Source: an uncultured Pelagibacteraceae bacterium (GTDB lineage Bacteria > Pseudomonadota > Alphaproteobacteria > Pelagibacterales > Pelagibacteraceae). Taken from it: DNA of 64,000 bases. The notes below the pieces were generated by a model. The model saw nothing but the letters and a program-made list of their open reading frames with translations. It was not told where the DNA came from and ran no database searches. Every line of letters starts with the position of its first letter. The first letter of the stretch is position 1. A program made the translations under genes and the position numbers. Shown here piece after piece: positions 6,998 to 31,745 of the stretch. The DNA lies in assembly GCA_902579985.1 (NCBI GenBank), contig CACHIV010000002.1, positions 62,001 through 126,000 on the forward strand, given 5' to 3'.

Positions 6998-7825
6998 TTA
7001 ACTTGTTTTTTTCTTTACTTTTTTTTTAAATTTTTTATCTAATTTTTCTCTATCTAATTCTTGAATAGTCTTATTTGATTTTTCTTTTGATTTAATTTTG
7101 ACATCTTTAGTTTCTAACTTTTCATCATTTTTTTCTGGAGTAGCTTTTTTAGCATTTTCAATAGTTTCTTTAATTAGATTACAATAAAGATCAATTGCTC
7201 TTCTAGCATCATCATTTCCAGGTATTGGAAAATCGATTCCATCAGGATTTGAATTACTGTCTAAAATTGCACAAATTGGTATACCTAATTTAACTGACTC
7301 TTGAACAGCTAATGATTCATAATTTGTATCAATAACAAAAACTAAATCAGGAACTTTTTTCATTTCAGCAATGCCGCCTAAAGCTCTTTCTAACTTGTCT
7401 TTTTTAACACTCATCTTTAATAATTCTTTTTTTGTAAATCCTCTGTTTTCAGCTACTAAATCGGCTTCATATTTTTTCATTTTTTTAATAGAGCCAGAAA
7501 TTGTTCCCCAATTAGTCAACATTCCGCCTAACCATCTATAATTAACAAAATATTGTCCCGTTGATTTTGCTACTTCTGCAATAGCCTCTGATGCTTGTTT
7601 CTTTGTTGATACAAAGAGAATTTTACCATTATTAGCAATAGTGCTATATATTTTTTCTAAAGCAATATTGGTTAGTTCTAATGTTTGCGTTAAATCAATA
7701 ATGTGAATTGAGTCTCTTTTGCCAAAAATATATTTCTTCATTTTTGGATTCCATCTTAAAGTCTTATGTCCTAAATGAACGCCTGCTTCTAATAATTGTT
7801 GAATAGTTAAACTTGGTATTTTCAT
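6998..7825 (-). CDS. rpsB: 30S ribosomal protein S2
   Basis: Structural protein of the small subunit. 275 aa, with the family start [19 protein letters not shown] and the segment [10 protein letters not shown]. The C-terminus (from about residue 225) is extended by a lysine/glutamate-rich tail ending [12 protein letters not shown] that is probably disordered. First gene of the operon running to fabZ. Preceded by an unusually GC-rich, structured leader (listed separately) whose 3' part overlaps the likely ribosome-binding site, consistent with S2 autoregulation. Confidence 0.97.
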
Positions 7826-7905
7826 ATTTATTCCCGGTTAAGCCACCACAGTAGTTTCCATTTAAGGACCGGAGGTATAAAACCACAAACTGTGTGCGTA
7901 TTTGT
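7826..7905 (-). promoter_or_regulatory. Candidate rpsB (S2) mRNA leader, cis-regulatory RNA
   Basis: This stretch between dnaE and rpsB is clearly more GC-rich than its surroundings. Read on the minus strand it contains a small hairpin (CACA-GTT-TGTG), a second one (GGT-TTTAT-ACC), and a distal element CCGGT (7868-7872) exactly complementary to ACCGG (7834-7838). The latter merges into the only purine-rich SD-like stretch, GGGAA, five bases before the ATG. That pairing could hide the ribosome-binding site. A cis-regulatory RNA upstream of S2 has been described in Pelagibacter and other alphaproteobacteria; I identify this by position and composition, not by a covariance-model match. Exact boundaries are uncertain. 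Confidence 0.65.
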
Positions 7906-7917
7906 TAATTTAATTGC

Positions 7918-7946
7918 TATTTACAAATAATTTGAATAACAAACAA
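7918..7946 (-). promoter_or_regulatory. Possible promoter for the rpsB-fabZ operon
   Basis: On the minus strand TTGTTT is followed after 17 bases by TAAATA, ahead of the GC-rich leader. Spacing is ideal, but the -10 box matches the sigma70 consensus at only three of six positions. In such AT-rich DNA this is weak evidence. A promoter is needed somewhere here because dnaE ends at 7954. Confidence 0.3.
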
Positions 7947-7953
7947 GTCTTTT

Positions 7954-10900
7954 TTAATGAATAATAGTAGAAATATCTTTATTTTTTAGAATATTTATTG
8001 ATTTTCTGTCAATACGTCGCTTATTTTTTAGTTTAAAGATAATATCGTTATTTTTATCTGTAATGTTAATATTGACTACTGTAGCACCTTCTTCTTTTAT
8101 CAAGTCTGAGATTAAATCAATATCTTTTGTAGATTTAAGATTGAATGAAATCTCTAAAATTGGTTTATTGAATAAATCTTTAAGAACAGTTACTTTTTGA
8201 ATATTTATTCTTTTAAATCTATTTTCATCATTTGAAATATTTTTTTTTAAAGTTAATAGAAGTGAATTGCCTTCAATTAAAATTTCTCGATTAGATTCTA
8301 AAATATCTGAAAATATAAATAATTCAAAGACACTCGTTAGATCTGTAAATTTAATTACACCATAGGAGTTACCTTTTGATGTTTTTCTCTCAGTTACTTT
8401 TAAAATCGTTGCTGCTATATTTGAACTTTTAATATTATTATCTAAAGAGAATTTAGCATAATCAATAATATTATAATCACCAAATATACTTTTAAATTGA
8501 TTTAATGGATGATCAGATATAAAAAAGCCAATCGCTTCAAATTCTTTTGATAATCTATCTTCAAATTTCCAATCTTCTGTATTAACAAATATTTCTTTAT
8601 CTTGTTTTTCATCAGATCCAAATAAATCAATTTGATTAGCTGATTTATTTTCATGAATATTTTTATTTTTTAAAATATAATTTGGGATAGAATTAAATAA
8701 TGCTTGCCTATTCTTATGAATACTATCAAATGCTCCAGCTTTAACTAATCCCTCTAATTGAAGTTTATTAATATTTTTATGATCTACTCTATTCAAAAAA
8801 TCATTAATTGATTTAAATTTTCCATTATTAACTCTTTCTTTTATCACATTAGATATAGCTTCATATCCAACATTCTTAATTCCACCTAAAGCATAATAAA
8901 AATTATCATCATCAAATTTAAAATCTGCAAAACATTTATTTATATCGGGTCTTACGATATTTATATTAATTCTTTTTAATTCCTCGTAGAATTCACTCAA
9001 TTTATTTTGATTAGATAAATCCATTGTCATTGAAGCAGCAAAAAATTCTTTTGGATAATATGTTTTTAAAAAAGCTGTTTGATAAGAAATAATTGCATAT
9101 GCTGCAGCGTGACTTTTATTAAAACCATATTCAGCAAATGGTTCTATTTTTAAAAAAATACTTGCAGCAACATCTTTAGCAATTCCATTTTTTATTGCTC
9201 CGGAAATAAAACCTTGTTTTTGTTTCTCTAGTTCTGCCCGTTTCTTTTTACCCATTGCTCTTCTTAAAATATCCGCCTCTCCAGCAGTAAAACCTGATAA
9301 TTTTTGAGCTATTTGCATCACTTGCTCTTGGTAAATAATAACTCCATAAGTAGGTTTTAAAATATCTTTTAGAAGTGGATGTAAATAATCAGGTGTTTGA
9401 CGACCATTTTTACAATCATTATAAGTCTGAATATTATTCATTGGTCCTGGTCTATAAAGTGCTACTAACGCGATAATATCTTCAATATGATTTGGTTTCA
9501 TTTGTGATAAAGCTTCACGCATACCAGAACTCTCAATTTGAAATAATCCTACAGTATTACCAGATGATAATAATTCAAAAACTTTTTGATCATCAAAATT
9601 AATATCTTCAATTTTAAAGTCTTTATCTTTTTTATTTATTAATTTTTGTGTTCTATTGATTACTGTTAAAGTTTTTAATCCTAAAAAATCAAATTTTATT
9701 AAACCTGCATTTTCTGCAGAATACATATCAAATTGAGTTGATGGTAATAATAAATCTGCTGATGCATCTTTATACAAAGGTACTGTATTGGTTAATTTTT
9801 TGTCAGCTATTACAACTCCTGCAGCATGAGTAGCAACATTTCTATTTAATCCTTCTAATTTTAGAGAAAGATCAGTTAATTTTTTTACTCTTGGATCATC
9901 ATTAACTAATTTTTGGAGTCTAGGTTCATTATTTATACACTCTATTAAACTTTGAGGTCTAGAGGGATCAAAAGGTATCATTTTAGAAATATTATCTACA
10001 AAACCATAGGAAAGTCCCAAAACTCTTCCCACATCTCTGATAACCATTCTAGCTTTTAATTTTCCAAATGTAATTATATGAGCAACGCTGTCTTTATATT
10101 TGTTAGTTAAATATTTAAAAACCAAATCTCTTTTTTCTTCACAAAAATCGATATCAAAATCAGGCATTGATATACGATCAGGATTCAAAAATCTTTCAAA
10201 AATTAAATTAAATTTAATAGGATCTACATCTGTAATAGATAAACACCAAGCAACTAATGATCCTGCTCCTGATCCTCTGCCTGGTCCAACTGGAATGTCA
10301 TTTTTTTTTGCCCATTTAATATAATCGGAAACAATCAAGAAATAACTTGGATACTTCATTTCTATTATAATTTTTAATTCATGATCTAATCGATCTTTGT
10401 ACTTTAAAAAAACTTCATTACCATCAAGATCTTTATTTTCGATTTTAAATACTTTTAAAAATTTTTCTTTTAATCCCTCCAAAGAATCTTTTTTAAGTAT
10501 TTCATCAGCACTGATACCTTTATCTGAACTAATATTAGGTAAAACTGGCTTTGAAAATTGTGGTCTAAAATTACATCTATAAGGCAGATTAAAATTATTT
10601 TTCAAAGCCTCAGGAAGATCAGAAAACAAAGTCAACATTTCTTCGTTAGACTTTAAATAATGTTGCTTGCTATATTTTGTTCTATTTTTTTCATTAATAT
10701 ATGTTTTTAATCCAATACAAGTTAAAGCATCATGTGCTTCGTGCATTTCTGATGTTAAATAAAATACTTCATTAGTGGCAATAATAGGTATTTGAAGTTT
10801 TAAAGACTGATCTAAATTAAATTTTTCAAAAGCAATCTCATTTTGATCACCATGTCTCTGTATTTCAATATAAAATCTATCTCCAAATTTTAATGATAAT

Positions 10901-31577: not shown

Positions 31578-31654
31578 TGGCGGGAGTGAAGGGACTCGAA
31601 CCCTCGACCTATCGCGTGACAGGCGATCGCTCTAACCAACTGAGCTACACCCCC
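31578..31654 (-). tRNA. tRNA-Asp (anticodon GTC)
   Basis: Read on the minus strand, the gene has acceptor GGGGGTG pairing with CACTCCC, a D-arm beginning GCTCAGTTGGTTAGAGC, anticodon loop CTGTCAC with anticodon GTC, and the T-loop GGTTCGAGTC. The 3' CCA is encoded. 77 nt. Confidence 0.97.
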
Positions 31655-31669
31655 ACTTAGATTAAATTT

Positions 31670-31745
31670 TGGTGGGCAGTAAAGGACTCGAACCTTTGAC
31701 CCCCTCGGTGTAAACGAGATGCTCTACCAACTGAGCTAACCGCCC
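31670..31745 (-). tRNA. tRNA-Val (anticodon TAC)
   Basis: On the minus strand, acceptor GGGCGGT pairs with ACTGCCC, the D-arm is GCTCAGTTGGTAGAGC, the anticodon loop is TTTACAC with anticodon TAC, and the T-arm GGTTCGAGTCC is canonical. The 3' CCA is encoded. 76 nt, 15 bases upstream of tRNA-Asp, so the two probably form one transcript. Confidence 0.97.

Follow-up and report, generated by a model that had tools for sequence, protein, structure and literature searches.

Autogenous control of the rpsB-tsf operon, which encodes ribosomal protein S2, is best known in Escherichia coli, where S2 in excess represses translation of the operon through its 5′ leader (PMC10931766). Effective repression by S2 requires S1 (PMC10931766; PMC2704228), and the operator is reported to lie upstream of the Shine–Dalgarno (SD) sequence and the start codon and to include neither (PMC10931766). 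Pseudoknots at or beside the initiation site are described for the leaders of E. coli rpsO (protein S15) and the alpha operon (protein S4), which are likewise subject to feedback by an encoded protein (PMC10931766); S15 and S4 are, however, proteins unrelated to S2, and these repressors trap the ribosome in E. coli. A leader of another lineage, the rpsB motif, was described in 2009 (Meyer et al.) in ‘Candidatus Pelagibacter ubique’, between dnaE and rpsB. According to that paper (PMC2704228), it contains a pseudoknot of five pairs, formed by the junction J2-3 with the 3′ extension that follows helix P1, and helices P2 and P3 of the ‘Cand. P. ubique’ copy are very short, at 3 and 2 bp. A literature search for more recent work on the alphaproteobacterial motif yielded none, and likewise no demonstration of its regulation by S2 in alphaproteobacteria and no report of S2 binding to an alphaproteobacterial or SAR11 leader. 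The copy analyzed here belongs to an uncultured member of the Pelagibacteraceae and lies in a stretch of 64 000 nucleotides, referred to as the window.

Identity of the leader

In the window, rpsB is encoded on the minus strand, 128 nt after the end of dnaE (position 7954), and is followed on the same strand by tsf, then by frr and more genes (the names dnaE, tsf and frr come from a reading of the translations). A preliminary description, made from the sequence alone, had noticed a GC-rich island before rpsB, and the composition agrees: positions 7834–7898 have 47.7% G+C against 27.7% for the whole window, a richness matched by only 0.7% of its 65-nt segments. That description had also recognized an rpsB leader and had proposed a covariance-model search as a check. 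A Rfam scan of positions 7600–8100 returned family RF01815 (‘rpsB’) over its full length (model positions 1–132 of 132; E 6.4e-5), with the rpsB ATG directly downstream. The identification is thereby upheld, with the proviso that the score of 33.5 bits lies under the curated gathering cut-off of 40 bits, which is a database threshold and not a structural feature. The family's attributes of structure and gene context are present, namely a location before rpsB or tsf (here rpsB directly, then tsf), a long stem P1 closing the junction (9 bp with a bulged A), a 5-bp pseudoknot linking J2-3 to the 3′ extension, and P2 and P3 hairpins that are variable and possibly very short (3 and 2 bp). Compared with the motif described in PMC2704228, the leader is alike in gene, organism group, P1/P2/P3 layout, five-pair pseudoknot and shortness of P2 and P3; it represents the rpsB motif in its SAR11 form. 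The elements are listed in Table 1.

Table 1. Features of the rpsB leader region in the window (positions of the window; cells paired refer to the alignment of 59 leaders)
Feature	Positions	Strand	Description	Evidence or remark
Promoter-like pair	7918–7946	minus	TTGTTT (7946–7941) and TGTAAATA (7925–7918)	conservation
rpsB leader RNA	7826–7898	minus		RF01815 match covers 7817–7898
P1, 5′ strand	7889–7898	minus	CGCACACAGU, CGC(A)CACAGU, one bulged A	two-sided compensated changes, RNAalifold
P2 mini-hairpin	7874–7884	minus	GGU-UUUAU-ACC, 3 bp	84.5% of cells paired
Pseudoknot, 5′ strand	7868–7872	minus	CCGGU, P2–P3 junction	J2-3 of PMC2704228
P3 mini-hairpin	7857–7867	minus	2 bp, CC 7866–7867 with GG 7858–7859	81.5% of cells paired
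P1, 3′ strand	7844–7852	minus	ACUGUGGUG	compensated changes, RNAalifold
Pseudoknot, 3′ strand	7834–7838	minus	ACCGG, 8 nt before ATG	conservation, compensated changes
rpsB	6998–7825	minus	ribosomal protein S2, 275 aa	start ATG 7825–7823

Default Rfam scanning missed the leader because its score falls under the gathering cut-off, and the same holds for all sampled SAR11 copies: none of 197 Pelagibacteraceae genomes reaches 40 bits, while matches below the cut-off were found in 123 of the 197 (fast filters). Since none passes although the motif was discovered in SAR11, we read the low score as a limit of the cut-off and not of membership. As a consequence, the leader is unannotated in every SAR11 genome sampled. 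For a second family of the Pelagibacterales, RF01815 matches were obtained in 4 of 49 sampled genomes even at relaxed E-values, while each of the 16 rpsB loci read has an intact leader. The only matches in the window at curated Rfam cut-offs are two adjacent tRNA genes (31581–31745, minus strand). The leader of the same operon in E. coli, t44 (RF00127), for which autogenous repression by S2 has been shown (PMC10931766), was considered and rejected as an identity, the source genome having no covariance-model match to it at E values up to 10.

Fold and conservation of the pseudoknot

The preliminary description placed CCGGT and its complement ACCGG exactly, and proposed that they pair, possibly as a pseudoknot. 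The pairing is not new, because CCGGU/ACCGG is the pseudoknot published from Pelagibacter in 2009 (PMC2704228); the motif and its pseudoknot are thus already known. The two small hairpins noted with it exist as P2 and P3, but they were mislocated; they flank CCGGT within P1, the main stem, which was absent from that description. With the pseudoknot open, P3 can be extended by a U7868–A7857 pair.

Taken alone, the single sequence is weak evidence, because 3.8% of dinucleotide shuffles give a comparable pair of GC-rich complementary pentamers with the 3′ strand at most 12 nt from the ATG; the case for pairing is made by conservation. A first set of leaders, comprising 79 rpsB loci gathered through S2 protein similarity plus the window (80 SAR11 leaders), was blind to the leader because the genes were chosen by their protein. 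The pentamers are fully complementary in all 80, and two of these leaders (L041 and L064) carry CCUGU/ACAGG, a compensated change. As a check for bias, rpsB upstream regions were added from a further 40 genomes of the same family, some 30 of which lacked a quick RF01815 match, and 16 from the second family (mostly without a match); with one exception, all of them retain CCGGU/ACCGG. Complementary pentamers are found in 135 of 136 Pelagibacterales leaders, which are not all independent since some genomes are counted in both sets; the sole exception, L225, loses one pair. Outside the order, the compensated pair CUGGU/ACCAG is present in L164–L166, and a shifted UCCGA/UCGGA pair is one possible reading of L173. 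Altogether, two SAR11 genomes and three or four other alphaproteobacteria carry compensated changes.

Across 59 aligned leaders, the structure including the pseudoknot is paired in 92.8% of cells, against 31–50% when slid by one to three columns. P1 was predicted independently by RNAalifold and shows two-sided compensated changes at six of its nine pairs. The pseudoknot is paired in 96.9% of cells, with compensated changes at one of its five pairs; the few failures are mostly alignment shifts. Within SAR11 the compensation affects only this one pair, in two similar leaders, the other pairs being near-invariant. Comparative evidence thus supports CCGGT/ACCGG as a conserved pseudoknot with compensated changes. 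The preliminary description had looked to an alignment of SAR11 upstream regions for compensatory changes in the pentamers, which were found, and to uncompensated loss of complementarity in relatives as counter-evidence, which amounts to one pair in L225. Two additional pairings were rejected: a sixth pseudoknot pair (U–G/A beside CCGGU), frequently missing in the alignment, and a rival CUCC/GGAG helix that would join the junction to the end of P1, for which GGAG is GGUG in most SAR11 leaders and the junction letters vary independently.

Transcription start

A promoter-like pair precedes the leader between dnaE and rpsB. A TTG is found 45–66 nt upstream of P1 (mostly 48–50) in 54 of 79 SAR11 leaders versus ~6% of shuffles, and in many of them GTAAAT/TAAATA follows 16–17 nt after the TTG. 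The pair (TTGttt, 16–17 nt, tGTAAATa) is positionally fixed in SAR11 but weak relative to the E. coli consensus; because of these weak hexamers, a generic promoter scan called nothing convincing. From its position, transcription is predicted to start upstream of P1. A start downstream of CCGGT, which had been named as an argument against the pairing, is thus not indicated as far as the sequence tells.

Loss of the SD sequence and position of the pseudoknot

It was initially proposed that the pairing occludes an SD-like GGGAA before the ATG. This part does not stand: GGGAA was rejected as an SD because it has no match to the 16S tail of the source genome (GGATTACCTCCTTTCT), and the longest anti-SD match in the rpsB initiation region, GGTG, lies 18 nt from the ATG and within P1. 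Literal masking of an SD is not supported for SAR11 at large either, since no SD match stands at a working distance before rpsB. In the window, SD use is low overall (anti-SD matches of at least 5 nt in 10 of 61 ORFs versus 2.7 expected from shuffles, the estimate covering only the window's ORFs of at least 100 aa). Given this low use and a pseudoknot strand at the position of an SD, the proposal is better phrased as a pseudoknot sitting on an initiation site without SD.

The comparison with other alphaproteobacteria, represented by 65 leaders drawn from RF01815 matches and thus standing for motif-bearing leaders, makes this arrangement clear. Their usual layout is AACCGG-aaAAGGAG-n-ATG, with the end of ACCGG 9–23 nt (median 17) before the ATG and, in 60 of 65, an intervening SD match of 4 nt or longer. 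In Pelagibacterales leaders with standard pentamers (n = 132), ACCGG ends 3–10 nt (median 8) before the ATG and such a match is present in only three. Thus, whereas most alphaproteobacterial copies have an SD after the pseudoknot, here the SD is gone and, as spacing and SD counts indicate, the pseudoknot strand occupies its position. Genus g9 of the family (e.g. L002 and L030) keeps AAAGGA after the pseudoknot strand, and its leader looks to us like an intermediate; in genus g5 and in the second family the strand reads ACCGGAG, a GGAG core overlapping the pseudoknot. In L160 and L162, from small-genome alphaproteobacteria, P2 is absent or nearly so (GCUAACCGGUCC...) and a full AAGGAGG SD is kept, contrasting with SAR11. 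Relative to the 2009 description (PMC2704228), the compact SD-less arrangement across the Pelagibacterales appears to be a modest new detail. That the Pelagibacterales leader was compacted until the pseudoknot 3′ strand replaced the lost SD, with opening and closing of the pseudoknot rather than SD exposure directly gating 30S access to the start codon, is a tentative proposal that we consider possible but doubtful.

A further element, ACCUCC close to CCGGU, matches the anti-SD core exactly, as the preliminary description stated, but of the 59 aligned relatives only 28 have it, the others having CCCCC, CUACC, UGUCC and other sequences; it was rejected as an anti-SD mimic. Half of it, the ACC, serves as the 3′ strand in P2.

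Proposed mechanism and alternative readings

We favor, with a probability of roughly 0.7, the reading that this SAR11 rpsB-motif leader lowers translation of rpsB and tsf through a pseudoknot stabilized by S2. The rpsB mRNA would start upstream of P1 and fold into P1 capped by two tiny hairpins, whose junction CCGGU would form the pseudoknot by pairing with the ACCGG immediately ahead of the start codon. When in excess over free 30S subunits, S2, probably together with S1, would bind the fold and stabilize the pseudoknot; since its 3′ strand lies 8 nt before the AUG, the pseudoknot once stabilized would be in competition with 30S loading, so that less S2 and less of the product of the following tsf would be translated. 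The fold is observed, as are its conservation and compensated changes, its position and its gene context; to these, the reading adds by inference that S2 binds and that the off state is the one with the pseudoknot formed. The suggestion that the CCGGT/ACCGG pairing is a switch controlled by S2 is accordingly retained as putative, and plausible.

The main competitor reverses the sign of the pseudoknot, making it an activating platform that places the 30S subunit at the AUG without an SD, with S2 repressing by displacement of the ribosome or through an upstream contact. SAR11 rpsB must yield an abundant ribosomal protein although no SD match stands at a working distance from its start, the interval from pseudoknot to AUG keeps within a narrow 3–10 nt, and pseudoknots can be high-affinity targets of S1 (reviewed in PMC10931766). 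The E. coli operator, reported to exclude SD and AUG (PMC10931766), also suggests that steric occlusion may not be the mode of the family. On the other hand, other alphaproteobacteria retain the same pseudoknot plus a separate SD, so that it is not a dedicated SD replacement, and most genes of the window lack an SD too, so that its absence needs no special platform. We regard an activating platform as unlikely.

Two other readings question the pairing itself. The CCGG-containing strands could be conserved single-stranded sites of protein contact with incidental complementarity, a view to which their near-invariance lends itself, since CCGG is self-complementary and invariance alone is therefore no proof of pairing. 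The compensated replacements of G–C by U–A in L041/L064 and of C–G by U–A in L164–L166, the shifted pair readable in L173 and the loss of a single pair in L225 only make this very improbable. No more credit goes to the nested lowest-energy fold, in which GGUU of the P2 region pairs with AACC before the AUG, as the functional or an alternative state. Although more stable for the window sequence (−16.5 kcal/mol versus −13.7 for P1, P2 and P3 without pseudoknot), it does not exceed shuffles in stability (z −0.08), is conserved in 73% of cells versus 92.8% for the pseudoknot fold, has an outer helix paired in 49% and shows far weaker covariation; it was rejected as the functional structure for its poor conservation.

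Implications

The 2009 prediction of a pseudoknot, made in one of the ocean's most abundant organisms, is now confirmed by compensated changes and by a much larger number of genomes. Its placement in SAR11 on the initiation site, with the SD lost, sets it apart from the E. coli S2 operator, which is reported to exclude SD and start codon, and makes for a sharp and testable difference between the two. If the pseudoknot strand did replace the SD, S2 would control initiation through a switch that needs no SD and is peculiar to the streamlined genomes of SAR11.
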